A stretch of 64,000 nt of DNA, from NCBI RefSeq assembly GCF_025947345.1, contig NZ_CP110011.1, positions 1,860,001 to 1,924,000 of the forward strand, given 5' to 3'. Positions 2,800-62,650 of the stretch are shown here, piece by piece. The notes under the pieces are model-generated. The model had not been told where the DNA came from, did no database searches, and worked only from the letters and a program-made list of their open reading frames with translations. A program made the position numbers and the translations under genes. Each line of letters starts with the position of its first letter. The stretch's first letter is position 1. Source of the DNA: Flavobacterium sp. N502536. Lineage in GTDB: Bacteria > Bacteroidota > Bacteroidia > Flavobacteriales > Flavobacteriaceae.

Positions 2800-2944
2800 G
2801 ATTTAGTTGTTTATTGGATCGCCCTACTCTGTTAAGGCTTTTCGGGAAACGCCTCTTAATTGCTTAAGCAGGACGAATTTAGACATACTAAACACAACCA
2901 ATACCAGTACTTATACCTGATTTACCAACGGTTAATTTTAAAAA

Positions 2945-47060: not shown

Positions 47061-50000
47061 TTATTCTAGGATCACTTTTTTAGCCGAAGCAGCATCCTGA
47101 TTGATTAAGTATACATAATAAACTCCTTTTGGTAAACCTTGTAAATTTATGGTATTAGTGGTGTCACTTGAATTTAAGGTAAATGATTTTACAAGTTGTC
47201 CTAAGCTGTTATAAACATTTGCTTTTTCTAAACTTGCATTTTGAATGTTTACTTCGCCTTTTGTTGGGTTTGGATAGATTGTTACTTTTTCAAAATTGTT
47301 GGTATCAATACCTAATGTTTTACAAGTGTTAGAATAAGTGGCGCTTTTTTCTTTAATGTTTGCCCAGTTGGCATTTGAATAATCGGCATCATCCACTTGT
47401 ATACAGCTTAGTGTTTTGTTTTCTAAGAAGCTGGTGTATATGGCGGTAGCAGCATTTTTTCCGGTTTGAGAGGGTAATATAAAATTTTTGTTATTACCAT
47501 TTTGAATATTCAGTGAAGTTAACGGGTTAAATTCAAGGAAAACAAGTTCTAAAAGGGGATTATGTGATAAATCTAGTGATGTCAACTGATTCCAGGCAAG
47601 ATTTAATCTTTTTAAACGAGGATTATTGCTAAGGTCTAAAGTGGTTAATTGAGCATTATCGAAATATAAGTCTTCTAATTTTGGATTAGAAGAAACATCT
47701 AGTTTTGAAATTTTAGTATAGACGCAGTTTAACTGCAAAAGATTAGGTTGATTTGATACATCTAATGTTGTTAGATCATTGTGACCGCAATAAAGTGATT
47801 CTAGTTCAGGATTTGCTGATAAATCAATGCTAGTTAACTCATTTCGATCCGCCGTTACGTAATGAACTTTTTTATTTTGCGATAAATCAATGGTTGAAAT
47901 TTGATTCATACTAAACATTAAATTAAAGAGTTCTTTGTTTGCAGTAACATTCAGAGCTTTTAGTTTATTGTCGTGCAGTGATAATTTCTTAAGTGATTTG
48001 TTCTGACTTACATTAATCGACTGTATATTGTTATAGTTAAGATCTAGGTAGGTCAATGACGTGAAATCTTCTATACCTTTAACATCACTAATATTGGAAT
48101 TAGAAAGGTCTAAGAAGGTTACTTTACTGATACTTTCGGTTGCAACTTTACCATTTTTACCATCTTTATCAATTTCGAGAGCAATCAATTTATCTTCGAA
48201 ATTAAAATCTGGAATTAAGGTGTATCTGGTACAGTCTACATTGTAGTTTGCAATCGCATCTTTGAAAGCAGTCCAATTAGTATTGGCATAAACATCGTCG
48301 TCAACTTGGATGCAATTTAAATTAGGATTATTCTTGAAATTAGAGTTTACATCAAAATTTATATTATTCCCATTCTTTAGATCTAAACTTTCTAAAGAAT
48401 TATTGGTACAATTAAGAAGGATTAAAGCTTTATTTTGAGAAAGATCTAAAAGAGACAATAGATTCCCGGAACAATTTAGAGAGTTTAAATTGGTAAAACC
48501 TTTAATTCCGGTTAAGTCTTTTATCCCACTTGAAGCAACGTCCAAAGAAGTTATATTTTCGATATCGCTGTTTAAAACAGATCCGTTTTTACCATCGGTA
48601 TCTATGTTTAGTGTTATTAATTTATCTTCAAAAGTCGGATCTGGGATTGCTGTAGCTTTATCGCAATCTATAGTTGTATATGTTGCTGACGCATCTTTGA
48701 AATTTTCCCAAATTTTGTTAGAATAAAGTGCATCATCGACTATGATACAAGTTAGTAATGGTGTTCTTGTAAAATTAGTAGCATTGTAAGTAATTTGCAT
48801 ATGGCGGTTGTTTCCATTTCTTATATTTATCGTAGTCAATAATTTATTTTCAGGGCATGTTAAAGATGATAAAGATGTGTTTTTAGAAAGATCTAAACTT
48901 GTTAACAGGTTTGAAGCGCACCATAATGAAGATAGATTTTTATTGTTGGATGTATCAATATTGGTTAGTTTGTTCGAATCGACGCTTAGAAGTCTCAAAT
49001 TAACATTTTGAGAAAGATCGAGATTTGTTATTTGATTGTAAGCTAGTGATAAGTATAATAGAGCAAGGTTTTTTGATGTATTTAATGTTGTTAGATTGTT
49101 GAAACTTGCTTGTAGGGATATTAATTGCAAATTTTGAGAGATGTCAAGACTGGTTATCTTGTTGGACATGCAACTTAATGACGTTAAAGCTTTAAAATCC
49201 TGAATTCCGGTTAAATCAGTAATATTACTAAAATAAAGATCTATTTCGGTAATAGTAGAAACTTTTGAAGTTAGAACTTTTCCGTCTGGAGCTCCAGAGT
49301 CGATTCCTAAAGCAATTAATTTTTTTTCAAAATTAATATCCGGAATTAAGGTGTAAGATTCAGGAGCGATACAAGGGGTTGAGGAAAAAGATGTAGTTGG
49401 GTCTTTTTTGGCTGACCAATTTGTATTTGCAGCTGCAACATCACTAACCTGAATACAAGTTAATTTTGGATTTGATGTGAAAGAGATTTGATTGCTAAGT
49501 AAGGATGTATTGTTAGTGAGATTTAAACTTGTCAATAGATTCTCTTGTAAATATAAAGTAGTTAGTCCCGGATTATTGGAAACCTCTAATGTTTCGAACT
49601 TATTTTGACGAAGGTCCAGACTACGCAAAGCTTTATTTTGAGAAAGATCTATCGTTGTTAATTGACTGTTTGCTGCAGTGAAAGACTCAAGAGCTTTGTT
49701 TTTGGTTAGATCATGACTTTTTGATAAATTGTTTCCGGAGACGGACAAATAAGTAAGTTTTAAATTTTGAGATACGTCAAGATCTGTTATTTTATTTTGA
49801 TTAATAGTAAGTGTTTCCAGAGCTTTATTAGCGGTTAAATCAATATTTGAAATTTGATTTGAGCTCACATTTAATTGAATTAATGAAAGGTTTTTGGTAA
49901 CATCTATAGTTGTTAGAATATTTCCTGCAATAAAAAATTTCTCTAATGATAAATTTTTAGTGATATCAATTGTTGTCAGTTTATTATAAGGACAATAGAG

Positions 50001-50390
50001 CAATTTTAAGGCTAAATTTTGCGATACGTCTAAGTCTGTTAGCTGATTTCCGGAGCAGTATAATGTGGTTAGCTTTGTGTTTTTAGTAACGTTTAATTTT
50101 GTCAATTTACCTGTTACTCCTCCATTAGGGTCGGAAGTTCCCGAGCAATACAAGGTTTCTAAGTTAGAAAAATCTTCAAGCCCTGTTAAGTCATAAATTA
50201 TTGTGGCGGCAAGGTCTAAAATTTTAACTTTTATAATATTGGCAGTTAATACTTTTCCATCGGCAGTTCCGGAGTCAATTCCTAATGCAATTAACTTGTT
50301 TTCAAAATTAACATCTGGAATCGCAGTGTATTGTTGCGCATAAATAGAAAAATTTACTAGTAATAGTAATACAAGTAGTTTTGTTTTCAT
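47061..50390 (-). CDS. secreted leucine-rich-repeat protein with T9SS sorting domain (1109 aa)
   Basis: Signal peptide 1-18 (...FSIYA). Four modules follow at about 21-345, 346-578, 579-721 and 722-1025. Each opens with a cap (YTxIPDxxFExKLIALGID...DGKV, then a DLTGIExF strand), runs 21-residue LRRs (LTxLDVSxNxxLTxLxCxxN), and ends with NPxLxCIQVDD...NW...KD...C, whose two Cys could pair. Module 3 has few LRRs. A type A T9SS sorting domain (YPNPTKGEVNIQN to the end, 1039-1109) directs export and probably surface anchoring. The ligand is unknown. Its promoter element matches those of the other two LRR genes. Confidence 0.9.
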   Translation of the reverse strand: MKTKLLVLLLLVNFSIYAQQYTAIPDVNFENKLIALGIDSGTADGKVLTANIIKVKILDLAATIIYDLTGLEDFSNLETLYCSGTSDPNGGVTGKLTKLNVTKNTKLTTLYCSGNQLTDLDVSQNLALKLLYCPYNKLTTIDITKNLSLEKFFIAGNILTTIDVTKNLSLIQLNVSSNQISNIDLTANKALETLTINQNKITDLDVSQNLKLTYLSVSGNNLSKSHDLTKNKALESFTAANSQLTTIDLSQNKALRSLDLRQNKFETLEVSNNPGLTTLYLQENLLTSLNLTNNTSLLSNQISFTSNPKLTCIQVSDVAAANTNWSAKKDPTTSFSSTPCIAPESYTLIPDINFEKKLIALGIDSGAPDGKVLTSKVSTITEIDLYFSNITDLTGIQDFKALTSLSCMSNKITSLDISQNLQLISLQASFNNLTTLNTSKNLALLYLSLAYNQITNLDLSQNVNLRLLSVDSNKLTNIDTSNNKNLSSLWCASNLLTSLDLSKNTSLSSLTCPENKLLTTINIRNGNNRHMQITYNATNFTRTPLLTCIIVDDALYSNKIWENFKDASATYTTIDCDKATAIPDPTFEDKLITLNIDTDGKNGSVLNSDIENITSLDVASSGIKDLTGIKGFTNLNSLNCSGNLLSLLDLSQNKALILLNCTNNSLESLDLKNGNNINFDVNSNFKNNPNLNCIQVDDDVYANTNWTAFKDAIANYNVDCTRYTLIPDFNFEDKLIALEIDKDGKNGKVATESISKVTFLDLSNSNISDVKGIEDFTSLTYLDLNYNNIQSINVSQNKSLKKLSLHDNKLKALNVTANKELFNLMFSMNQISTIDLSQNKKVHYVTADRNELTSIDLSANPELESLYCGHNDLTTLDVSNQPNLLQLNCVYTKISKLDVSSNPKLEDLYFDNAQLTTLDLSNNPRLKRLNLAWNQLTSLDLSHNPLLELVFLEFNPLTSLNIQNGNNKNFILPSQTGKNAATAIYTSFLENKTLSCIQVDDADYSNANWANIKEKSATYSNTCKTLGIDTNNFEKVTIYPNPTKGEVNIQNASLEKANVYNSLGQLVKSFTLNSSDTTNTINLQGLPKGVYYVYLINQDAASAKKVILE

Positions 50391-50410
50391 AGAAAATTGA
50401 TTAGGAGGTG

Positions 50411-50454
50411 CAAGTATACGATTTGTGATCGGTATTTCTTTACGGAAAGACGTA
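50411..50454 (-). promoter_or_regulatory. LRR-regulon element and promoter, gene 1
   Basis: On the minus strand TACGTCTTTCCGTAA plus AGAAATA (50454-50433), then 14 bp, then TATACTTG (50418-50411), 20 bp before the ATG. It is a variant of the elements at 57001-57044 and 62607-62650. Confidence 0.65.
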
Positions 50455-50491
50455 ATGGTTTGGCTGATTTTTTTTGGTTTCGAGAGGGCAT

Positions 50492-50531
50492 AAAAAATCC
50501 TGTTTTCAGTATATCGAAAACAGGATTTTTT
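50492..50531 (-). terminator. terminator of the FN3 lipoprotein/large LRR operon
   Basis: AAAAAATCCTGTTTTC, loop, GAAAACAGGATTTTTT gives a 16-bp perfect stem, 29 bp past the lipoprotein stop. Confidence 0.9.
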
Positions 50532-50559
50532 GGTTTAACTAATTGTAATTATTAAGATT

Positions 50560-51249
50560 TTAATTGGTTTTGAATTTCCAAATCTGACCGATTGTTTCTC
50601 CTCCTTTATTGTCTTTTACAACAACTTTCCAGAAATATTCTTTTGAAGTGCTAAGTGTTACATCAAATGAAGTTGAATTTGTATTTTCGGCAACTTTTGC
50701 TGTTGGTGGATTCGTCGTTCCAAAATACACATCATAAGTAAGAACATCATTACTGTCAACATCTGTGGCACTCCATTTTAAAATAGCCGTTGTTGTGTTC
50801 AAAACGGAGTTTATAACAGGCTGTATTAATTCCGGAGAAAAGGGCAAGTGATTGACCACTGCATCACCACTGGTGTAGAGTTTAAAAGTAGCGGAATAAG
50901 TGCTTGCCAGTCCTTTACTGTCGGTCGCTTTAACTCTCCAATAATAGGCAGTGTTTTTCTCCAATGCGATTGAAGTAGTATTAGTAGTTACTTCGGATGA
51001 TTTTGCAATTTGTGCAAACGTATTTTCTTTTGCTACCTGAATCTGATAGGTTATGGCATCTTTATTTGAATCGGTAGATAGGTCCCATTGAAAAGAAACG
51101 GTATTATCGACACATAATTTGTTATCAGCCGGAAGTTTTAATGCAGGTACAGTTGGTGCCTCATTAGCTGCTTCCGGAGATCCTGAATCATCGCTGCCGC
51201 AAGCGGCAAATAAAAGACCAATGATGGTGAGGGATATAAACTTCTTCAT
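50560..51249 (-). CDS. surface-type lipoprotein with two fibronectin III-like domains
   Basis: A 229-residue lipoprotein with lipobox GLLFAAC (Cys17), followed by CGSDDSG. Acid-rich residues right after the Cys are a known export signal for surface lipoproteins in Bacteroidetes (inference here). Two FN3-like domains follow (about 33-127, with PADNKLC...SFQWDLSTDSNKDAITYQIQVAKE and AYYWRVKATDSKG; and about 137-229, with WSATDVDSNDVLTYDVYFGT and YFWKVVVKDNKGG). It begins 2 bp after the stop of the 1907-residue LRR gene, so it is its operon partner. Confidence 0.88.
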   Translation of the reverse strand: MKKFISLTIIGLLFAACGSDDSGSPEAANEAPTVPALKLPADNKLCVDNTVSFQWDLSTDSNKDAITYQIQVAKENTFAQIAKSSEVTTNTTSIALEKNTAYYWRVKATDSKGLASTYSATFKLYTSGDAVVNHLPFSPELIQPVINSVLNTTTAILKWSATDVDSNDVLTYDVYFGTTNPPTAKVAENTNSTSFDVTLSTSKEYFWKVVVKDNKGGETIGQIWKFKTN

Positions 51250-51251
51250 CT

Positions 51252-54200
51252 TTATTTTTTTATAATTTTAATGTATTCCGGAGTCTCTAAATAGATTTTG
51301 GCAGCATAAATTCCTGACGGTTGATTGTCAAGATTTAATAACACTTTTCCGTTTTCAATCGTGTACGTTTGAGTCGAAACCAATTGACCCGAGAAGTTGT
51401 ATAGTTCTATTTTAACTTCATTTTTAGTGCTTGGAATCTCTATTTCAAAACTACCTGAAGTAGGGTTTGGATAAGCCGATAAAGTTTGTGACTCGAAATC
51501 TGAAACCGATACTTTTTTGGCAAAAATACCTTCACAAGCTTTTGCAGTCGCTACTTCTACTAAGCCATTTTTAGTAACATCTATAGTAAAAGTGGCCTCA
51601 TTGGTTTGAAATTGCTCTGTTCCGTTAACAAATACGGTAAATGGAGCTGTTCCTTGCGTAATTTCAACAGCAACCGTTTTAGCCGTTACGCTGGATTTTC
51701 CGGAAACAGTACCCCCTTTTGCAATGGTAACCGTAAAGTTTTGCTCGAAAATTACATCCGGAATCGTAATTTTAATCTTGTAGCTTCCTGGAGCCAGAGC
51801 CGTAATTTTTAAGCTGTTGTTGGCAAAAGTATAAGACTTATCATTTATAGTCGCGGTATACGCAAATGCTGCTTTCCCTGTGATACTTATTTCGCCATTA
51901 TTTTCACCAAGACAAGATTCACTTTTTGTTTCAATGGTAAAATTGTTGGCAGGCAAACTTAATTCTCCGGTACATTCTGTATTATAAGTTGCAAAGGCAT
52001 CTTTGCTATACGGCCAATTCGTCTTTGCATAATTTACATCATCAACCATAATACAATACAGTTTTGGATTTGATGAAAAAGAGACATAATTGTTGTTTAG
52101 TAAAGTGTTTTTACCATTTTTAAGATTCAAACTCGTCAATTGGTTAGAGTTAACCGTTAAAGTGGTTAATAGCGGGTTTTGCGACACGTCTATTGCTCCA
52201 ATTTTATTTTCGCTTACTTCCAGCCCGGTTAATAAAGTATTATTTGAAACGTCAAGAGTGGTTAATTGACATTTTTTAACATTCAAATAAGTTAATGCTT
52301 TATTTTTAGAAACATCTACCGCTTTTAATTCCGTTGAAAAAGCACTTAAAGTTGTCAACTCCACATTTTTAAATGTATTTACTACTGCTATTTTATTTCC
52401 ATAGATAGCGAGTTTTTTTAATGCTAAATTGGCAGCCACATCAATGTTTGTAAGCTGATTGGAACCCACTTCTAAATCCTCTAAAGCAAGATTTTGAGAC
52501 ACATCAAGAGTTGTAATTTGATTGTTATTAAGACGAAGCGTTTTTAAAGTTTTATTGGCTGACAGATCTATTGCTGTTAAATTGTTGAAACCGAAAGTTA
52601 CCGATTCCATAGCAGTGTTTTTAGAAAGGTCTAAACTGCTGATTTTATTTTCACGTAAGTCAATATACTTTAATTTAAGATTGTTAGAAAGATCTATTTT
52701 AGTAATTGCTCCGTTATAACAGGTCAGTTTTTCTAATGCTGTAAAATCTTCGATCCCTTTTAAATCTGTAATTTTATAAGTGGAGTCAGTTACATCTAAT
52801 TCCTGAAGATTTTTAATGCTGGAAGTTGCAATTTTTCCGTTTTCACCATCTTTATCAATACCTTTTTTGATTAAAACTTTTTCAAAGTTACTGTCCGGGA
52901 TTAACGTATACTGAACATTTTCAGGACATATTCCGGTAGAATAACTGGCTTGTGAATCTTTTGCAAACCATTTCTCCGTAGAGAATGCCGCATCATCAAC
53001 CTGAATGCAAAGTAAATTTGGATTTTCGGTGAAATTTCCAAAAATCATACGTTGCATGTTGGCATTGTTTCCATTCTTTACATTTAAACTATAGAGATTA
53101 TTGCCTGCACAATCAAACTCTTTTAAACTTTTATTTTTAGAAACATCCAGATTTGTAATTTTATTAAAACTTGCACTTAGAGTAAGCAGCAGCGTGTTTC
53201 TGGAAACATCTAAAGTCTGAATGTTGTTAGAACTACAATTTACGTTAGTTAGTAAAGTGTTGTAATAAACCGGTAACTCGCTCAGTTGATTTTTAGAACA
53301 ATTTAAGGAAGTCAAAGAATTAAAGTCCTTGATTCCGGTTAAGTCTTTAATATTACTGTTCGAGACATTTAAAGAGGTGACATTAATAATACTGGCCGTT
53401 AAAACTTTTCCGTTTTTACCGTCCTGATCAATTTGTAGCGCTATTAGTTTATCTTCAAAATTGGAATCAGGAATTGCAGTATATGCTGCTACAACCGGAC
53501 ATGAGTTTGAATAACTGGCAGTTGCATCTTTAAATTTTGCCCAGTTTGCATTAGAATACGCAACATCATCAACCTCAATGCAGGTTAATTTTGTATTGAC
53601 AAAACCGGCATAAGCAAAGGTATTGGTTGAGAAGTTTTTATTGTTCCCGTTTTTTAAATTCAAATAGGTTAAATTCGAATTATAGGCACAAGATACACCC
53701 GTTAATAAAGTGTTTTTAGAGACATCCAAAGTTCTAAGATCGTTAAATTCACAATATAATGACCCCAGTTTTGTGTTTTTAGAAAGATCCAGTATTTTTA
53801 GATCGTTGCGTTCTACACCTAAATATTGAAGGTTAGTATTGTTCGAAACGTCTAAGGTTTTGATACCGGTTTCTGAACCGCTAAGGGTAACCAATGCCGT
53901 GTTTTTGGTGACATTTAGTTCGACTAGAGGATTTTGTCTAATGTCTAAAGATTTTAAAGCTGTATTTTTTGAAAGGTCAACTTTAGAAATTTTATTTTTA
54001 GTTACACTTAAAATCTCTAAAAATAAATTATTTGAAGTATCAAGTGTTGCTATGTTATTGTAAGAACAATCTAAGTAGGTAAGATTTTTAAGTGCTGAGA
54101 TGTCTAGTTTTGTCAGTTTACTAGGTGTAGAATAGTTGGTAGCAGAACAATCTAATGATTTTAAATTTTTAAAATACTCTAATCCTGTTAAATCCGTTAC

Positions 54201-56975
54201 TAATCCTCCGTTGAAATACAAATTCTCGGTGCTTTCCACTCTTGATTTTAGAACTTTCCCATCTAAAACACCATCTACGTTATTGCTGATTAAGGCTTTT
54301 TCAAACGCTGCATCTGGAATTAAAACATATTCCGGAGCTGTGCAGGTTAAAGAATAAGTAACATGCGCATCTTTAGATGTTGTCCACTTTGCATTAGCAT
54401 AAGCAACATCATCCACAAGTATACAGCTTAGACTTGGATTGTTTTTCAAATTGATAGAGCTTATCTGACTATTTTTACCGTTTTGAAGGTTCAAAGTTGT
54501 CATTTCAAGATTTGCATTACACATTATGGTAGACAAAGCAGTGTTTTTGCTTAGGTCTAGTGTGCTTAGACGATTTGACGGAGCGCTTAAGTACACTAAG
54601 TTTTTATTTGCAGAAACATCTAATGAAGTTAATTGATTTGAACCGCAATACAGGTAAAGCAATTTGGTATGTTTTGAAATGTCTAACGAGGTGAGTTGAT
54701 TGGAAATGCAGCTAAGAACTACTAAATTCAAATTATTAGAAATATCGAGAGTGGTCCATTTAAGATTCTGAATGTCCAGCTCCTTCAAGTTTGTATTTTT
54801 AGAAATGTTTAAACTTGGTAAAGAAGTAGATCCACAATACAAATAAGTTAAGACCAGATTTGTTGAAAGATCAAGTGAAGCAATTGGGTTATTGCTTATA
54901 CTTAAGCTTTCCAGAACAGGGTTCGCAGCGGTACTTAGAACAGAAATTTTATTATAGTTAATACCTAAAGTAGTCAATTTCGGATTCTTAGAAATGTCTA
55001 AACTGCTAAGTTGATTCCCTGAAAGATGTAAAGAGGTCAAATTAGTATTTTTAGAAACGTTTATCGCTTTTAGTTTACCATTTCCTCCGGCACCGGTATA
55101 TGAACTTGCATTACAACTTAATGTCTCTAAAGCCTCAAAAGCCTCTATTCCTGTTAAATCAGAAACTGTCGAAGCTTCAATAGTTAACGATTTAACGGTT
55201 TTGATCTTATCAGTCAATACTTTTCCATCGGCAGCTCCTGAATCGATTCCAAGCGCAATAAGTTTACTTTCAAAATTGACATCCGGAATTAGCGTATAGG
55301 CACAATCTATACTATAACTGGCCGATGTATCTTTTGTAGGACTCCAGTTTGTGTTAGCATAAGTTACATTGTCAACCAGTATACAATTTAACTGAAGATT
55401 CTGCTTAAAATTAGAAGTTTGAGCTTGAAGTCTGTCGTTATTCCCATTTTTCAGATTTAAAGAGACCAGCTTATTGTTGTTACATCTTAATGAAATGATC
55501 ATGCTATTTGATGAAACATCAAGGTTTGTAAGTTGATTGCTTCCACAGTCTAACTCTTTTAAAAATAAGTTTTTAGAAACGTTTAAAGCCGCAATTTTAT
55601 TGTTGTACGCGTTTAGAACAGTCAGCTCAGTATTTGCGGAGACATCTAAAGTGGTAATTTGGTTAGTGTAACAAAGTAAATCGGTTAAGAGCGTATTTTT
55701 TGATATATTTAAACTTGTTAACAAATTTTCTCCACAGTATAACTTGGTTAAAGCGGTAGTATTGTCAAGGTTTAAATTGGTTAGTTTATTGCCTGCAACA
55801 TTTAGTTCCTTTAAGAGTTTACTATTCGATAGCTCTAAAGAACTTAATTGATTAAAGTTAACATTCACCGATAACAAATTGGTGTTTGTTGACAGATTTA
55901 AACTGGTAATTTTATTCGTCTGCGCATAAAGATTCTGTAAAAGAACATTTGCGGTAAGGTTTAATTCGGTCAGTTGATTTTCGCTAACATCCAGTCTGGT
56001 TAATTTTTTGTTCTGTGATAAATCGATCTTTGTTAATTGATTTCTTTTACAAGATAAATAGGTGAGCGATGTAAAGGCTTCAATCCCGGTTAAGTCAGAA
56101 ATAAGCCTGCTTTCAACTTCTAACGAGGTTACAGAAGCCACATTTGCCGTTGGTATTTTTCCGTCAGGATTACCTGAATCAAGACCCAGGCTGATCAGTT
56201 TGTTTTCGAAATTGATATCCGGAATCAAGGTAGTAGCGGCACAATCTGTACTGAAACTTGCTATTCCGTCTTTTTGGTTAGACCAATTCGCATTAGCATC
56301 TCCCTCGTTATCTACCTGAATACATTTTAGATCCGGGTTTAATCTGAAGCCTACATTAATAAGGAAAAAATTCTTCCCGTTTTGTATATTCAAACTGGTT
56401 AGTTTATTTAAGGAACACTGTATGGTAGTTAGTTTAACATGTTTAACGAGGTTAAGATTCTCTAGCAAATTATCATAACACGTCAAGTTGGACAGATTCA
56501 GGTTGGAAGACAAGTCGAGAACCTTGATTTTATTTTTGGCACAATTTAAACTGGTTAGCATCAATTGATTAGAGGTGTTGATGCTTGTAAGTTGATTGTC
56601 GTCACAAGAAAGGGTTGTAAGTGCTTGGTTGTTAGATAGATTTATTGTTGTTAGAAGGTTCTTGGAACAATCTAAATTATCCAACAGAGTATTTTTAGAC
56701 AAATTCAACTGTGTCAATCTGTTAGAGGAACAACTTAGTCTTTTTAAACTAATAAAATCTTCAATTCCGGTAAGGTCAGTGATGGAGCTGTTATCAACAA
56801 ACAAAGTAGTGATACCAGCTACATTGGATTTTAAAACTTTCCCGTCGGGAGCACCTGAATCAAAGCCCAGACTTATTAGCTTGTTTTCAAAATTCACATC
56901 AGGAATTGAAGTGTACTGTTGTGCATGAATCGAAAAACTTGCTAACAACAGTAAGAAGAGTAGTTTTGTTCTCAT
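51252..56975 (-). CDS. giant secreted leucine-rich-repeat protein with T9SS sorting domain (1907 aa)
   Basis: Signal peptide 1-18 (...FSIHA). Six modules begin at about 21, 247, 559, 883, 1165 and 1356, each with the IPDxxFExxL cap, 21-residue LRRs and a C-cap with CIxVDD...W...KD...C. Residues 1672-1830 form a different region (LSLPANNFTIETKSESC..., then SYTFANNSLKITALAPGSYKI and GTAPFTVFVNGTEQF, PKD/Ig-like strands). The tail is a T9SS type A domain (AYPNPTSGSFEIEIP to IKIIKK) of a different subtype from those of genes 1 and 3. It is first in a two-gene operon with the FN3 lipoprotein. Confidence 0.9.
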   Translation of the reverse strand: MRTKLLFLLLLASFSIHAQQYTSIPDVNFENKLISLGFDSGAPDGKVLKSNVAGITTLFVDNSSITDLTGIEDFISLKRLSCSSNRLTQLNLSKNTLLDNLDCSKNLLTTINLSNNQALTTLSCDDNQLTSINTSNQLMLTSLNCAKNKIKVLDLSSNLNLSNLTCYDNLLENLNLVKHVKLTTIQCSLNKLTSLNIQNGKNFFLINVGFRLNPDLKCIQVDNEGDANANWSNQKDGIASFSTDCAATTLIPDINFENKLISLGLDSGNPDGKIPTANVASVTSLEVESRLISDLTGIEAFTSLTYLSCKRNQLTKIDLSQNKKLTRLDVSENQLTELNLTANVLLQNLYAQTNKITSLNLSTNTNLLSVNVNFNQLSSLELSNSKLLKELNVAGNKLTNLNLDNTTALTKLYCGENLLTSLNISKNTLLTDLLCYTNQITTLDVSANTELTVLNAYNNKIAALNVSKNLFLKELDCGSNQLTNLDVSSNSMIISLRCNNNKLVSLNLKNGNNDRLQAQTSNFKQNLQLNCILVDNVTYANTNWSPTKDTSASYSIDCAYTLIPDVNFESKLIALGIDSGAADGKVLTDKIKTVKSLTIEASTVSDLTGIEAFEALETLSCNASSYTGAGGNGKLKAINVSKNTNLTSLHLSGNQLSSLDISKNPKLTTLGINYNKISVLSTAANPVLESLSISNNPIASLDLSTNLVLTYLYCGSTSLPSLNISKNTNLKELDIQNLKWTTLDISNNLNLVVLSCISNQLTSLDISKHTKLLYLYCGSNQLTSLDVSANKNLVYLSAPSNRLSTLDLSKNTALSTIMCNANLEMTTLNLQNGKNSQISSINLKNNPSLSCILVDDVAYANAKWTTSKDAHVTYSLTCTAPEYVLIPDAAFEKALISNNVDGVLDGKVLKSRVESTENLYFNGGLVTDLTGLEYFKNLKSLDCSATNYSTPSKLTKLDISALKNLTYLDCSYNNIATLDTSNNLFLEILSVTKNKISKVDLSKNTALKSLDIRQNPLVELNVTKNTALVTLSGSETGIKTLDVSNNTNLQYLGVERNDLKILDLSKNTKLGSLYCEFNDLRTLDVSKNTLLTGVSCAYNSNLTYLNLKNGNNKNFSTNTFAYAGFVNTKLTCIEVDDVAYSNANWAKFKDATASYSNSCPVVAAYTAIPDSNFEDKLIALQIDQDGKNGKVLTASIINVTSLNVSNSNIKDLTGIKDFNSLTSLNCSKNQLSELPVYYNTLLTNVNCSSNNIQTLDVSRNTLLLTLSASFNKITNLDVSKNKSLKEFDCAGNNLYSLNVKNGNNANMQRMIFGNFTENPNLLCIQVDDAAFSTEKWFAKDSQASYSTGICPENVQYTLIPDSNFEKVLIKKGIDKDGENGKIATSSIKNLQELDVTDSTYKITDLKGIEDFTALEKLTCYNGAITKIDLSNNLKLKYIDLRENKISSLDLSKNTAMESVTFGFNNLTAIDLSANKTLKTLRLNNNQITTLDVSQNLALEDLEVGSNQLTNIDVAANLALKKLAIYGNKIAVVNTFKNVELTTLSAFSTELKAVDVSKNKALTYLNVKKCQLTTLDVSNNTLLTGLEVSENKIGAIDVSQNPLLTTLTVNSNQLTSLNLKNGKNTLLNNNYVSFSSNPKLYCIMVDDVNYAKTNWPYSKDAFATYNTECTGELSLPANNFTIETKSESCLGENNGEISITGKAAFAYTATINDKSYTFANNSLKITALAPGSYKIKITIPDVIFEQNFTVTIAKGGTVSGKSSVTAKTVAVEITQGTAPFTVFVNGTEQFQTNEATFTIDVTKNGLVEVATAKACEGIFAKKVSVSDFESQTLSAYPNPTSGSFEIEIPSTKNEVKIELYNFSGQLVSTQTYTIENGKVLLNLDNQPSGIYAAKIYLETPEYIKIIKK

Positions 56976-57000
56976 AGATTAGATTTATAGTTAGGTCGGG

Positions 57001-57044
57001 CAAGTGTACAAAATGAAACTGATATTTCCTTACGGGAAGACGTA
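57001..57044 (-). promoter_or_regulatory. LRR-regulon element and promoter, gene 2
   Basis: TACGTCTTCCCGTAA plus GGAAATA (57044-57023), then 14 bp, then TACACTTG (57008-57001), 25 bp before the ATG. Confidence 0.7.
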
Positions 57045-57084
57045 ATCTGCAGAATTTAAATGGTTAACATAAAAAAGGCATAAA

Positions 57085-57122
57085 AAAAATCCCATTTTCG
57101 TTTGAATGAAAATGGGATTTTT
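57085..57122 (-). terminator. terminator of the third LRR gene
   Basis: AAAAATCCCATTTTC, loop GTTTGAAT, GAAAATGGGATTTTT gives a perfect 15-bp stem. The T-run is on the minus strand, about 18 bp past the stop. Confidence 0.88.
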
Positions 57123-57139
57123 GCTTTAATTAAATGGTA

Positions 57140-60100
57140 TTACTCTACCACAATTTTTTTCGCCGAAGCTGCTTCCTGATGAATCAAATACAGGTAGTAA
57201 ACTCCTTTTGGCAAATCAGATAAATTGATGGTATTATTGGTATCAGCCGGGTCTAGGGTGAATGATTTTACCAATTGTCCTAATGAGTTGTAAACAGCTG
57301 CTTTCTCTAAAGTAATATTGGTAATGTTTACTTCGCCTTTCGTTGGGTTTGGATATAAAATTACATTTTTAAGAGTAGTTTCCTCAATACCCAGCGTAGC
57401 GCAAGTTGCCGAATAAATGGCTGTTGGTTCTTTAATTTTAGACCAGTTTGCATTAGAATAATCAGGATCATCTACTTTGATACAGCTCAATTTGTCCAGA
57501 CCAAGAAAAGAGGTGGTGATCGCATTTGCTGCGTTTTTGCCAGTTTCGGATGCTACGATAAAATTCCTGTTATTGCCATTTTGAAGGTTTAAAGAAATTA
57601 ACGGATTGTTTGCAACATAGATAACTTTTAGATTTCTGTTTTTAGAGAGATCAAGAGTAGTGATTTGATTAAAAGCGGCATTTAATGTTTCTAAAGCCAC
57701 ATTTTTGCTAAGATCTAAAGACGTTAGTTGATTGTTTTCACAGTTTAAATGTACTAACGAAGTAAAGTTTTCGATACCAGACAAATCGGTAATGTTGCTA
57801 TTAGAGAGATCCAAAGAGGTAATAGCCGTTACATCTGCAATGGTGATTTTACCGTTTAGTCCGTCGGTATCAATTCCTAAATCAATTAATCTTTGTTCAA
57901 AGTTTTGATTTGGAATCAAGGCAAATTCTGCCGTACAACTTGTATTGTAAGCAGCTGTGGCATCTTTTTGAGTAGACCAGTTCGCGTTGGAATACCCAGC
58001 ATTATCGACCTGAATACACGTTAAATTTGGATTGTTTCTAAAATCTACATTGTAAACAATAACACCCGGATTTGGGTTGTAGGGCACTAAAAGTGTATTG
58101 TTTCCATTCTTTACATTTAAATAGATAAGTTTATTAGACGCACATTTAAAGGTACGAAGGTTTGGATTTAAGGAAACATCCAGTGTTGTCAGTTGATTAT
58201 TATTGCAATCCAGCAAACCTAATTTAGTGTTTTTTGAAACATCCAGTTTGGATAACTTATTATTGGCACAATACAAATAATTTAATTTTAGGTTTTTAGA
58301 AACATCTAAAGCCGTTATCGTATTAAAAGTACAGTCAAAAGTCTCCAGATTAGTATTGGAGGACACATCAATGCTCGTTAATTGATTTCCGTAAACAAGA
58401 AATCGTGTCAAGGCTAAATTTTTAGAGACATCTATATTCGTCAGTTTATTGGTATTGCAAATTAAACTGGTTAGAGCTGTGTTTTTAGAGACATCTAAAG
58501 TTGTAAAAAAGTTATTTCCAGACCATAACTCATTTAAAGCGGTGTTTTTACTAATGTCTAAATTAGACAATTGGTTTGAAGTACAGGTTAACGACTTCAA
58601 TTCTGTGTTTTTTGAGACGTCTAAAAGAGCTATTTTATTATAACCACAATCTAATTTAGTTAACAAAGTATTTTGTGTAACATCTAAAATTGCGATCTGA
58701 TTGGAAGCACATTGTAGTGTTACCAAGGCTTTATTTTTCGAAACATCTAATGTTTGTAATCCGTTAGAATAACAATTTAAATAGGTCAAAGCTGTATTTT
58801 TTGACATGTCTAATTTAGCTACCAGATAATTGTTGTTACTGTCTAAATGAGTTAAGGCTATGTTTTCTGAAACGTCTAGTGTTTTTAACTGATAATTACC
58901 ATAACATTCTAACTTGGTCAAAGCTTTGAAACCCTGAATTCCGGTTAAATCGGTTATAGAGCTATAGGAAACATTCAAAGAAGTTACGGTGTTGATGTTT
59001 GAAGTTAAAACCATTCCATCAGCAACGCCGGAATCAATACCCAGCGAAATCAGTTTGTTCTCAAAATTCACATCAGGGATAAGCGTATACAAATCAGAGG
59101 AGGAACATGACAATGAAAAACGGGCAGTTGCATCTTTAGCCTTAGCCCAATTTGCGTTGGCATAAGTTACGTCGTCTACCTCAATACAACTAAGATTTGG
59201 ATTTTTAACAAGTGTTAAAATAGAACTGTTTAATAAGGTGTTTTTTCCGTTTTTCAAATTCAAAGAAGACAAATCATTCCAATCGCAGAAAAATGAAATC
59301 AGGGCCGGATTTTTAGAAAGGTCTAAGTCTTTTAATCGATTTGAGCTGCAGGAGAAGTAGTTCAAATTACTATTTTTAGAAACATCTAATGCGGTTAAAA
59401 AGTTTGAATTACACTGGAATTGTGCTAAATTGATGTTTTTGGAGACGTCTATAACCGCTAATTTATTAAAACCACAATCGAAGTTTTTTAATAAAACATT
59501 TTTAGAAACATCTAATGTACTAATGTCGTTTGCGCCACAAAACATAGAAACTAGCTCGATATTGGCGGTAATATTTAATGCTGATAATCGGTTAGAGCTA
59601 CACCATAAAATATTTAAAGTTGTGTTTTTAGAAAGATCTAAACTGGTGATCTGATTGCTGCTGCAATCTAGCGTAGTTAATAATGTATTTTTGGAGACAT
59701 CCAAACTAGTTAATTTTCCCTCTCCGCGAGTGTTCGAATTTCCATCAAGACCACTACAGCGCAAGCTGGTTAGTAAAGTATTTTGGGTTACGTCTAAACT
59801 TAACAGCTGTTTTGAACTACAATTCAGACTGGTGAGTAAAGTATTTTTTGATACATCTAAACTTGTCATGTAATTTCGACTACAGTCCAGTGTTTTCAAA
59901 GCGCTAAAGCTTTGAATCCCGGTTAAATCCTGTATGGAGCTCGATGAAACGTCTAGAGAAATTACAGTTTTAATCTTTGAAGTTAAAACTTTCCCATCAG
60001 CAATACCGGAATCAATACCCAAAGCGATTAATTTCTTCTCAAAATTAAGATCAGGAATAGCAGTGTAATAAGGATCGCAGACGGTCAAATAATTGGCGGT

Positions 60101-62581
60101 AGAGTCTTTTTTACTTCCCCAATTTGTATTCGAATACGCAACATTATCTACTTGTATGCACGTTAAATTAGGGTTATTTGTAAAATCGATATAGCTTGAT
60201 AATGAAGTGTTTTTTCCGTTTTTTAAGTTGAAATCGGTTAATTGATTCGATTTACAGGACAGAGCGGTAAGTGCTGTGTTTTTAGAAACATCAAGACTGG
60301 TTAGCTTATTAAAATTACAGTCGATATTGTAAAGCGCAATGTTTTTAGAAACATTCAGAGAGGTCAGCTTATTTGATTCACATCGTAAATCTAAAAGAGC
60401 AGTATTTTTAGAAAGATCGAGAGTAGTCAAATCATTAGATCCGCAGAACAATTGAGTCAGGAGCGTATTTTTAGAAACATCCAAACTCGTCAATTGATTT
60501 GAAATAGCATACAATTCTGTTAGTTTAACATGTTTCGTGATATCGATAGTTTTTAAAGGATTCGAACTAACACGCAAAGAAGTCAAATCTAAATTTTTAG
60601 TAATATCCAGCTCCGAAAATTGATTGTTTTGGCACCATAAACCCGTCAGTTTAGTATTTTTAGTGACATCAAGCGTTTTTAATAAATTACCATTACAATC
60701 TAATTTAGTCAACGCAAGGTTCTGAGATACATCCAGACTTGTTAATTGATTGTACCTGCAATCTAAATAAGTCAAATCAGGATTTTTAGTAACGTCCAGA
60801 GTCGTTAATCGATTAGGGCTATTGGTCGTGGAGTCGCAGGATAAATAAATCAATTTGACATTTTTTGTTACATCCAGGCTCACTAAAGGGTTACTGCCGG
60901 TATACAACGTGGTCAGATTCACATTTTTAGTAACATCCAGATTGGTCAACTGGTTGGAGTCGCAGTATAATTCATTTAAGGCTAAATTCTCACTAACATT
61001 CAGATGGGTTAATTGATTAGAGTAACAAACCAATTGAGTTAAGGAAGTGAAACCCTCTATCCCTGTTAAATCGGTGATATCACTAGAGGCAACATTTAGC
61101 GTTTTGACAGCCGAAATTCTTGATGTTTGAACTTTTCCGTTCATACCGTCATCGTCAATGCCTAATGCAATTAACTTGTTTTCAAAAAGAGGATCGGGGA
61201 TAAGCGTGTACGATTCGCAACTATTATTAAAAACGGCTGCTGCGTCTTTTTTTGAGCTCCAGTTGTTAGTAGAATAGAAAACGTCATCTACCTCAATACA
61301 AGTTAAATTCGGATTGTTGGTAAAGAGAATATCGTTGCTTACAAAAGCACTGTTATTTCCGTTTTTTAAATTTAAATAATAAAGCGCATTATTCTCACAT
61401 CGCAAAGAGGTGATAAGCGGATTTTTAGAAATATCAATAGATTTTATTTGGTTAGAACTGCAATTTAGAGCTTGTAATTTGGCAAAGTATTCAATTCCGG
61501 ATAAATCTGTAATTAAACTGTTTGAAAGGTCAAGTGTCGTTATATTGCTAATATTTGCAGTTGAAACAAATCCATTTTTACCATCTGTATCAAGCCCCAG
61601 ACTGATTAATTTGTCTTCAAATTTTTCATCCGGAATCCTAGTGATACCAGCGCAGCTTATTTCAGAATATAAACCACCTGTTTTATTAAGGGTTGGCCAG
61701 TTTTTGTTTGAAAAAGTGGCATTATCTACCTGAATACAGAATAATTTAGAATTGTATGTAAAATCTAAATTATAACCGTTGATGTAATTATTACCACCGT
61801 TTTTTAAGTTTATAGAGGTTAATTCGTTGAAACTGCAATTTAATCGGGTTAGAACTCTGTTTTTAGATAAATCAAGCGTTGTTAATCGATTGGAATAGCA
61901 AATTAAATCTGTTAAAGATATATTTTGGGTTACATTCAGGCTGGTAAGGCTATTTTGTGAACAATCTAAACGGGCTAAACTTGTGTTTCGGGAGGTATTG
62001 ATACTACTAAGTTTGTTTTCCTGACAATAAAGGGATTCTAGTTTAGTGTTTTTAGTCAGATCCAAAACCGTTAGTTGATTTTGTCTTAGGTTTAAACTCC
62101 GTAGTTGGAAATTTAGCGAAACATTCAATCCGGTTAACCTATTTACATCGCAGGATAGATTGACAAGCTCTGCATTGTTAGAAACGTCCAGGTTTGTTAG
62201 TTGATTGGATCGACAGTTTAAAGTAATAAGATTCCTGTTTTTTGTAACGTCGAGTGTCGTTAAACTATTGTTATTACAGTACAAAGCAGCCAGCAGCGTA
62301 TTTTTGGAAACATCCAGACTAGTCAGTTTATTAGAATAACAAGACAAATCTGTTAACGAGACAAAATCCTGAATTCCGGTTAAATCAGAAATATCGCTTG
62401 AAATTACATTCAAAGAAGTCAGATTTGAGATTTTTGAAGTAAGTACTTGTCCATCAGTAGCGCCGGAGTCAATCCCTAAAGCGATTAACTTTTTTTCAAA
62501 GTTAATGTCAGGGATTGCGGTATATTGAGCATAAATAGAAAAGTTTGCTAACAACAGCAACAAAAGTAGTTTTGTTCTCAT
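57140..62581 (-). CDS. giant secreted leucine-rich-repeat protein with T9SS sorting domain (1813 aa)
   Basis: Signal peptide 1-18 (...FSIYA). Six modules start at about 20, 313, 458, 839, 1165 and 1553, of uneven LRR count. Module 2 is the shortest; modules 3, 4 and 5 are long and carry the cleanest LTSLDVSKNTxLTxLxCxSNQ repeats. The T9SS type A tail (LYPNPTKGEVNITN to the end, about 1743-1813) closely resembles that of gene 1. The 63-bp DNA repeats are near-identical in places (TTTTTAGAAACATCTAA on plus), so repeat number may vary by recombination. It has its own element-bearing promoter and terminator. Confidence 0.9.
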   Translation of the reverse strand: MRTKLLLLLLLANFSIYAQYTAIPDINFEKKLIALGIDSGATDGQVLTSKISNLTSLNVISSDISDLTGIQDFVSLTDLSCYSNKLTSLDVSKNTLLAALYCNNNSLTTLDVTKNRNLITLNCRSNQLTNLDVSNNAELVNLSCDVNRLTGLNVSLNFQLRSLNLRQNQLTVLDLTKNTKLESLYCQENKLSSINTSRNTSLARLDCSQNSLTSLNVTQNISLTDLICYSNRLTTLDLSKNRVLTRLNCSFNELTSINLKNGGNNYINGYNLDFTYNSKLFCIQVDNATFSNKNWPTLNKTGGLYSEISCAGITRIPDEKFEDKLISLGLDTDGKNGFVSTANISNITTLDLSNSLITDLSGIEYFAKLQALNCSSNQIKSIDISKNPLITSLRCENNALYYLNLKNGNNSAFVSNDILFTNNPNLTCIEVDDVFYSTNNWSSKKDAAAVFNNSCESYTLIPDPLFENKLIALGIDDDGMNGKVQTSRISAVKTLNVASSDITDLTGIEGFTSLTQLVCYSNQLTHLNVSENLALNELYCDSNQLTNLDVTKNVNLTTLYTGSNPLVSLDVTKNVKLIYLSCDSTTNSPNRLTTLDVTKNPDLTYLDCRYNQLTSLDVSQNLALTKLDCNGNLLKTLDVTKNTKLTGLWCQNNQFSELDITKNLDLTSLRVSSNPLKTIDITKHVKLTELYAISNQLTSLDVSKNTLLTQLFCGSNDLTTLDLSKNTALLDLRCESNKLTSLNVSKNIALYNIDCNFNKLTSLDVSKNTALTALSCKSNQLTDFNLKNGKNTSLSSYIDFTNNPNLTCIQVDNVAYSNTNWGSKKDSTANYLTVCDPYYTAIPDLNFEKKLIALGIDSGIADGKVLTSKIKTVISLDVSSSSIQDLTGIQSFSALKTLDCSRNYMTSLDVSKNTLLTSLNCSSKQLLSLDVTQNTLLTSLRCSGLDGNSNTRGEGKLTSLDVSKNTLLTTLDCSSNQITSLDLSKNTTLNILWCSSNRLSALNITANIELVSMFCGANDISTLDVSKNVLLKNFDCGFNKLAVIDVSKNINLAQFQCNSNFLTALDVSKNSNLNYFSCSSNRLKDLDLSKNPALISFFCDWNDLSSLNLKNGKNTLLNSSILTLVKNPNLSCIEVDDVTYANANWAKAKDATARFSLSCSSSDLYTLIPDVNFENKLISLGIDSGVADGMVLTSNINTVTSLNVSYSSITDLTGIQGFKALTKLECYGNYQLKTLDVSENIALTHLDSNNNYLVAKLDMSKNTALTYLNCYSNGLQTLDVSKNKALVTLQCASNQIAILDVTQNTLLTKLDCGYNKIALLDVSKNTELKSLTCTSNQLSNLDISKNTALNELWSGNNFFTTLDVSKNTALTSLICNTNKLTNIDVSKNLALTRFLVYGNQLTSIDVSSNTNLETFDCTFNTITALDVSKNLKLNYLYCANNKLSKLDVSKNTKLGLLDCNNNQLTTLDVSLNPNLRTFKCASNKLIYLNVKNGNNTLLVPYNPNPGVIVYNVDFRNNPNLTCIQVDNAGYSNANWSTQKDATAAYNTSCTAEFALIPNQNFEQRLIDLGIDTDGLNGKITIADVTAITSLDLSNSNITDLSGIENFTSLVHLNCENNQLTSLDLSKNVALETLNAAFNQITTLDLSKNRNLKVIYVANNPLISLNLQNGNNRNFIVASETGKNAANAITTSFLGLDKLSCIKVDDPDYSNANWSKIKEPTAIYSATCATLGIEETTLKNVILYPNPTKGEVNITNITLEKAAVYNSLGQLVKSFTLDPADTNNTINLSDLPKGVYYLYLIHQEAASAKKIVVE

Positions 62582-62606
62582 AGATTAGAGTTAGGATTAG
62601 GTCGAA

Positions 62607-62650
62607 CAAGTGTACAAAATACAAATGGTATTTCCTTACGGGAACACGTA
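62607..62650 (-). promoter_or_regulatory. LRR-regulon element and promoter, gene 3
   Basis: TACGTGTTCCCGTAA plus GGAAATA (62650-62629), then 14 bp, then TACACTTG (62614-62607), 25 bp before the ATG. Element, spacing and -7 box match those of the other two LRR genes. Confidence 0.7.

Follow-up and report, generated by a model that had tools for sequence, protein, structure and literature searches.

Response regulators of the NarL/FixJ family, RcsB among them, combine a receiver domain with a helix-turn-helix fold, and the RcsB box is a 14-bp dyad that lies next to or over the −35 region. To our knowledge, few target sites are known for the kinase/regulator pairs of Bacteroidota. Two-component control touching the type IX secretion system (T9SS) has been described for PorX/PorY–SigP (PMC4800418). 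In Flavobacterium psychrophilum, the −7 boxes of sigma-A promoters (TAnnTTTG, and TAnnTTGY in the SM5 class) occupy positions −12 to −5, and tandem leucine-rich repeat (LRR) proteins are among the secreted adhesins, with 17 induced by fish plasma (PMC9723704). Here we examine a 22-bp element that precedes three LRR genes in a 64,000-nt stretch of the genome of Flavobacterium sp. N502536 (contig NZ_CP110011.1, positions 1,860,001 to 1,924,000; hereafter the window, in which positions are counted from the first base). The element also lies directly behind genes of one NarL/RcsB-like response-regulator family, an association newly described here, and very probably serves that family as operator and promoter in Bacteroidota. 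Together with a −7 box at fixed distance, it probably defines a Bacteroidota promoter class at which an RcsB/NarL-like regulator would activate the LRR genes.

The promoters described here have −7 boxes of the two types named in F. psychrophilum, TAnnTTTG (SM1–3) and TAnnTTGY (SM5), in the same place, and the LRR genes share the tandem arrangement of its T9SS LRR proteins. They differ in that a dyad replaces the −33 box; the parts of the F. psychrophilum report drawn on here name no such upstream activator dyad (PMC9723704). PorX/PorY–SigP differs as well, since an extracytoplasmic function (ECF) sigma factor there acts on secretion components, whereas here secreted cargo genes carry the sites. 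We recognized no description of the element in the open-licence literature on Bacteroidota regulators and motifs, as judged by titles and the beginnings of abstracts.

The three elements lie on the minus strand before LRR gene 1 (50433..50454, TACGTCTTTCCGTAAAGAAATA), LRR gene 2 (57023..57044, TACGTCTTCCCGTAAGGAAATA) and LRR gene 3 (62629..62650, TACGTGTTCCCGTAAGGAAATA). A re-reading of the sequence placed them, to the base, where a first-pass annotation had put them, and also recovered the TACG-N6-CGTA inverted repeat and the spacing of exactly 14 bp between each 22-mer and a TAyACTTG box that it had reported. The boxes, likewise on the minus strand, are TATACTTG for gene 1 (50411..50418) and TACACTTG for genes 2 and 3 (57001..57008 and 62607..62614), and the first base of each stands at +36 from the first base of its element. 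On inspection, all three promoters have the −7 box and lack the −33 TTG. They therefore depart from the standard Bacteroidota sigma-A promoter (−7 TAnnTTTG plus −33 TTG) and are, on sequence, a factor-type variant of it. Because the −7 box is taken as −12 to −5, a position that comes from F. psychrophilum (PMC9723704), the dyad falls at −48 to −35 with its centre at −41.5. Class II activators bind at sites with this layout, near −41.5, over the −35/−33 region and at a fixed distance, and the arrangement suggests activation. The fixed +36 and the absent TTG support the earlier proposal of an activator-type site that stands in for the −33 TTG with rigid spacing to the −7 box.

The element is real and not a product of chance. 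In the window, its first 15 bases gave three matches at ≤2 mismatches against a shuffle mean of 0.33, a number reached by 1 of 100 shuffles. The exact core followed by GAAA (TACGNNTTNCCGTAA..GAAA) occurs five times in the organism's own genome, compared with none for the reversed pattern, and 44 times, against none reversed, in 150 genomes of the genus, where it is spread over 27 genomes (5 of the 44 sites are those of the own genome). These 44 sites were selected by the element alone, with the −7 box ignored; even so, TANNNTTG stands exactly at +36 from the element start in 32 of them and at no other offset between 20 and 50. The pattern TANNTTGY adds two further sites at 36 and one at 29. 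SM5-type TAnnTTGY boxes at the same +36 occur at loci L012/L018 (own genome 2566643–2566686), L078 and L235. The core is better written TA[C/T]GG-N4-CCGTAA.

We then define the composite as the element plus 16 bases plus TANNNTTG; the site of LRR gene 3 has 0 mismatches to it. At ≤2 mismatches the relaxed composite gives 20 own-genome matches versus 8 for the control, and we place weight on the rows with 0 and 1 mismatches (4 and 3, respectively). Among the 2-mismatch rows, 2566667 is already an exact-element site, and 3366470 and 3731674 are weaker. Exact composite matches in genome_contigs number at least 120, and all matches listed come, by their record titles, from Bacteroidota, including Flavobacterium, Chryseobacterium, Epilithonimonas, Elizabethkingia, Pedobacter, Sphingobacterium, Maribacter and Lacinutrix. 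Among the matches listed, 56 of 120 lie ≤200 bp behind a response-regulator gene, 19 precede LRR-type leader genes and 45 fall to other genes, the classes having been assigned in that order. None of these 45 is enclosed by a same-strand open frame of >150 amino acids (aa).

In the own genome, the site at 737029 begins 14 bp past the stop codon of one such regulator gene, RR1 (736346–737011), and a second paralog, RR2 (474897–475562), is 50% identical. The association extends beyond close relatives: 17 of the 56 regulator-adjacent sites, among the matches listed, lie behind regulators <60% identical to RR1. We also approached the association from the protein side, with relatives found in 22 of 119 genomes of the order and 30 of 32 matches fetched. 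The dyad TA[CT]GG-N4-CC[AG]TA occurs ≤400 bp downstream of 22 of these 30 regulator genes (reversed control 0; shuffle mean 0.01), or of 20 of 28 when the own RR1 and RR2, known beforehand, are excluded. The −7 box is TANNNTTG at +36 for 20 of the 22 dyads, and the remaining two carry the SM5 box TAACTTGC and TAGGTTTA, one each. Within the genus, 14 of 20 fetched regulator loci show the site.

An AlphaFold2 model of the regulator, built with 60 relatives (pLDDT 91.2, pTM 0.67), has a receiver domain followed by four C-terminal helices. The sequence profile ranks RcsB first among families (E 9.5e-10), and RcsB is also among the top Foldseek matches of the model, RcsB on DNA included; the VIA-align lists are a second look confined to the Foldseek matches. 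Residues D10, D59, S94 and K117 are invariant among the 60 relatives and E9 is nearly so. The proteins thus show the features of NarL/FixJ members, namely a receiver with phospho-Asp, acidic pocket and Lys, and a four-helix GerE-type DNA-binding domain. Pfam recognizes Response_reg in 54 of the 60, DUF5932 in 31 and GerE in one. The neighbouring kinases contain TPR repeats and an HATPase_c match below its cut-off, and the C-terminal part of the RR1 kinase matches the MctS, UhpB, LiaS and NarX models, all below their cut-offs. We claim likeness to RcsB for fold and geometry, not membership. The half site here, TACGG, differs from the RcsB consensus half site, and the DUF5932 matches, the adjacent kinase/regulator pair, the Bacteroidota −7/−33 promoters and the operator copies in kinase genes (see below) set the system further apart.

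The rGAAA falls near the expected position of a −33 box and might be read as part of a site, rGAAATA-N14-TAnACTTG, that an alternative sigma factor recognizes in place of activator plus sigma-A. We regard this as very improbable. The −7 box fits either TAnnTTTG, the sigma-A consensus, or TAnnTTGY, its SM5 variant (PMC9723704). Moreover, rGAAA is only partly kept in the 22 regulator-selected sites while the dyad arms are kept, although the search pattern itself fixed most arm bases. We also considered and rejected an RNA element: no Rfam family was found at the elements in 14 loci (the scan gave a weak, terminator-like rliE match with E 0.45 and a second match due to chance), and the element would not be transcribed from this promoter because it lies upstream of the −7 box.

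At many loci a second copy of the operator is present within the coding sequence of the kinase. Of the 30 protein-picked loci, 12 have a further dyad 90–125 bp before the start of the regulator gene, in the frame of the kinase, each with TANNNTTG at +36. The arms are kept while the encoded residues vary (N-M-E-N-R, S-T-V-S-R, N-T-D-S-R). The full composite lies within the kinase gene at 23 of 42 kinase/regulator loci with regulators <60% identical, compared with a mean of 0.14 and a maximum of 2 in 1000 synonymous-codon shuffles; the 42 mix protein-found and element-found loci and include some close relatives, and shared descent, which the synonymous shuffle does not model, lowers the number of independent intragenic cases. 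All 20 fetched RR2 loci of the genus have the intragenic copy. In the own RR2 kinase it lies at L086:4297–4340 (own genome ∼474796–474839), and further copies are found at L292–L311 and at L233, L235, L238–L241, L244–L247, L250 and L251. The intragenic composite is absent from all 68 kinase stretches without a following family regulator, against 45 of 160 for paired kinases, a count that includes overlapping stretches of the same loci. The idea that dyads upstream of regulator genes are a coding coincidence was dropped after the synonymous shuffles, the comparison with unpaired kinases and the box spacing. The intragenic copy may instead provide an internal, self-regulated promoter for the regulator gene.

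These copies also bear on whether the dyad could be bound by a repressor that blocks the −33 region. Sites over the −33 and −7 regions can repress, and RcsB itself does so at gadA, through a site that occupies the −10 and −35 regions (PMC5651002). A repressor, however, requires no exact distance, yet the spacing is invariant and the 36-bp distance is kept in the intragenic copies too; the three LRR promoters, which lack the −33 TTG, look dependent on an activator. Repression is thus an improbable account of these sites.

Upstream of the LRR genes, the element forms part of a larger unit. Genes with LRR-like first codons were found in 25 of the 150 genomes of the genus (33 of 37 rows examined), and 20 of the 33 leader genes have the element 64–70 bp before the ATG at ≤4 mismatches, compared with 12 of 1650 shuffled upstream regions. 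Of the 13 that lack it, 11 encode bodies unrelated by eye. Three added leader genes bring the count to 21 of 36: one gene of genome G103 has the element, while the own-genome gene at 3392080 and one gene of G096, both with other bodies, do not. TACGT is the commonest LRR flavour of the half site (13 of the 20 element-bearing leader genes), and TACGG is found in five (L260, L263, L275, L276, L281). Promoter and leader thus form, it seems, an unchanging 5′ module to which LRR or other bodies are joined.

Duplication accounts for part of the likeness among the three window sites. By inspection, the promoters at 57 kb and 62 kb have similar spacers, leaders and first codons, and the whole module is common to LRR-leader genes in 16 genomes. 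The first-pass annotation had taken the surroundings to differ and the conservation of the element to be selective; the surroundings of these two sites are not unrelated, and the evidence for selection comes instead from sites that precede different genes in further genera. That the LRR genes were recently copied together with their promoters is scarcely credible as the sole explanation and is contradicted by the data: in other genera and families, genes unrelated to these have the element at the same spacing, and leader genes with the same first codons and other bodies (the 11 noted above) lack the element. Duplication remains, on this evidence, part of the history of the LRR copies.

The sites fall into two dialects, TACGG..CGTAAGGA for RR1 and TATGG..CCGTAAAATACTG for RR2. 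Nineteen of the 20 fetched RR2 orthologs of the genus have a site behind them, mostly TATGG-N4-CCGTAAAATACTG, and 11 RR1-adjacent sites read TACGG-N4-CCGTAAGGA, two of them with A replacing the first C. Matrices were built from the 11 RR1 sites kept of 14 loci and from the 19 of 20 RR2 sites. The three LRR sites score 17.2, 21.9 and 25.1 with the RR1 matrix and 5.8, −4.6 and −4.6 with the RR2 matrix. Because they score as RR1 sites, RR1 is the predicted LRR activator. Elsewhere in the own genome, 475646, 479182, 2955392 and 3366470 fit RR2, 2566667 (before a lipoprotein gene) fits RR1, and 3731674 is poor with both. The LRR genes are likely members of the regulon of this regulator family, in which RR1, rather than another NarL-type protein, would serve them.

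Alternatively, the operator may be of the same type and a different NarL-family regulator may read the LRR dyads, leaving RR1 to serve the genes behind its own. The TACGT of the own LRR sites occurs in none of the 11 RR1-adjacent sites, a first look at the own genome gave 14 candidate loci, so that further such regulators are likely, and three element-bearing genomes have no match to the regulator. Against this stand the matrix scores, far higher for RR1 than for RR2, the five TACGG leader genes, and the RR1 ortholog (≥80% identity) that is present in all 16 genomes with the LRR-leader element and in 24 of the 150 genus genomes overall. We consider this alternative unlikely, and prefer RR1 as the regulator of the LRR genes.

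Several further observations weigh against our interpretation of the element as the operator and promoter of this family. The 15-mer alone, at ≤1 mismatch across the whole genome, gives 13 matches and 13 for the reversed control, and is uninformative. Twelve of the 44 genus sites lack TANNNTTG at +36. The downstream dyad is missing at 8 of the 30 protein-picked loci, two of which (L253, L254) are the first of a tandem regulator pair. Within the RR1 clade, 2 of 12 orthologs at ≥80% identity have a decayed element only, and a 74% ortholog has none. The three element-bearing genomes without a regulator match at E 1e-30, of 27, are G038, G076 and G147; the G147 site resembles coding sequence by eye. 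Two LRR-family genes with the same leader (L269, L285) lack the element. The intragenic copy is found in none of 35 RR1-type loci, and the 68 unpaired kinases come largely from RR1-clade neighbourhoods. Orthologous regulator-adjacent sites share descent and are not independent; likewise, the co-occurrence of RR1 and LRR-leader elements tracks a clade and is weak on its own. Together with the absence of TACGT from the RR1-adjacent sites, these points temper the assignment.

The genome-wide scan for the element proposed earlier found own-genome sites beyond the three LRR genes; the accompanying notion of a regulon of surface proteins is not borne out as worded. Exact or near sites precede genes for a lipoprotein, an HSDR_N nuclease and a KAP-NTPase defence candidate, as well as a small membrane protein/nuclease pair that is next to a response-regulator gene. 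The predicted regulon is thus wider than surface proteins. The gene set behind RR2 (L086:5411–9808, own genome ∼475910–480307) encodes a small protein, which we take to be DUF4236-like, a TerB-domain protein, a coiled-coil-like membrane protein and the HSDR_N nuclease, which has its own RR2-type site. The KAP-NTPase gene at 3731674 (L227) matches PADLOC candidate PDC-S20 (590 bits), and is preceded by the dyad TATGG-N4-CCATAA with box TATATTTG at +36.

In other genomes, PADLOC identifies sites before a ThsA-like SIR2 protein (656 bits, L025), a type I methyltransferase (L101), a restriction subunit (L159), PD-Lambda-1 (L201), and candidates PDC-S71 (L103) and PDC-S06 (L050). Defence-type targets overall (SIR2/ThsA, restriction, caspase, PLD, PD-Lambda-1-like and others) were noted across several Bacteroidota, at L025, L050, L099, L101, L103, L131, L132, L159, L186 and L201. 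The first PADLOC scan gave 11 matches from 20 targets, most of them chosen for Pfam or first-residue hints of defence. Five targets without hints (L107, L118, L123, L125, L140) gave none, and 20 more ‘other’ sites, comprising all unscanned ones with an open reading frame (ORF) of >95 aa, gave two. At a threshold of 1e-5, 9 of 35 scanned ‘other’ sites match, compared with 1 to 8 of 65 own-genome control ORFs (67 before removal of a very long and a nested one); five of the 45 ‘other’ sites, which have no ORF, and the five shortest were left out of the scan. At three PADLOC-matching genus loci (L025, L050, L028), the TA of the −7 box is missing from +36. The link to defence genes is suggestive only.

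The three LRR genes, all on the minus strand, encode proteins of 1109 aa (gene 1, 47061..50390), 1907 aa (gene 2, 51252..56975) and 1813 aa (gene 3, 57140..62581). Each has LRR_4 and the T9SS C-terminal sorting domain Por_Secre_tail, with TIGR04183 also matched in gene 3, and each translation begins with a signal-peptide-like start (MRTKLLLLLLLANFSIYAQ in gene 3). Across 47061–62581, similar leader starts and similar T9SS tails surround the variable LRR bodies of related genes, an arrangement that suggests modular exchange. An fn3/SusE-like lipoprotein gene (50560..51249, minus strand) lies 2 bp behind LRR gene 2 and, by this spacing, likely shares its operon. Genes of this type also stand just upstream at L043, L100 and L150, where, as at L163, RCC1-repeat-like secreted proteins (by eye) have the TACGT flavour. 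Hairpins followed by a T run, identified by eye on the minus strand, lie between LRR gene 3 and the gene 2 element (57081..57120) and between the lipoprotein gene and the gene 1 element (50492..50530, within the weak rliE match from Rfam). Both would act as terminators; since two of the three elements follow such a hairpin, it is likely that every element stands at the head of a separate transcription unit. Rfam also reports a DUF805b cis-regulatory RNA match at window 2821–2855 (minus strand, 38.2 bits), which was rejected as the element, the sequences being unrelated.

In the model we propose, the RcsB/NarL-like regulator would bind as a dimer to the dyad (centre −41.5), take the position of the absent −33 box, and bring the primary sigma factor to target genes that include the three LRR genes. 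The neighbouring kinase, which contains TPR repeats, would trigger this by phosphorylation. At many loci, those of the RR1 clade not among them, the copy within the kinase gene ∼90–125 bp before the regulator gene could form an internal, self-amplifying promoter. We infer regulator binding, activation by that binding and the kinase trigger from sequence and modelled structure.

On the broadest reading, this is a Bacteroidota-wide two-component network with one promoter code and a second operator-plus-promoter in the kinase gene, which would switch on genes for giant LRR surface proteins in Flavobacterium and anti-phage defence genes in its relatives, as a master switch for contact and conflict with other organisms. 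We hold this reading only tentatively and think it somewhat doubtful, having lowered our estimate in view of the PADLOC counts and the three matching loci without the TA. The sequence shows regulator gene, target site and promoter geometry side by side, which makes the regulon directly testable, and the specificity code of the two dialects, RR1 and RR2, could be mapped onto recognition helices. The intragenic copies would illustrate clearly how selection on codons can maintain an operator and promoter within a protein-coding region. If the broad reading is true, the surface LRR proteins and some restriction and other defence targets would tie one signalling family to interactions with host, phage and neighbours.

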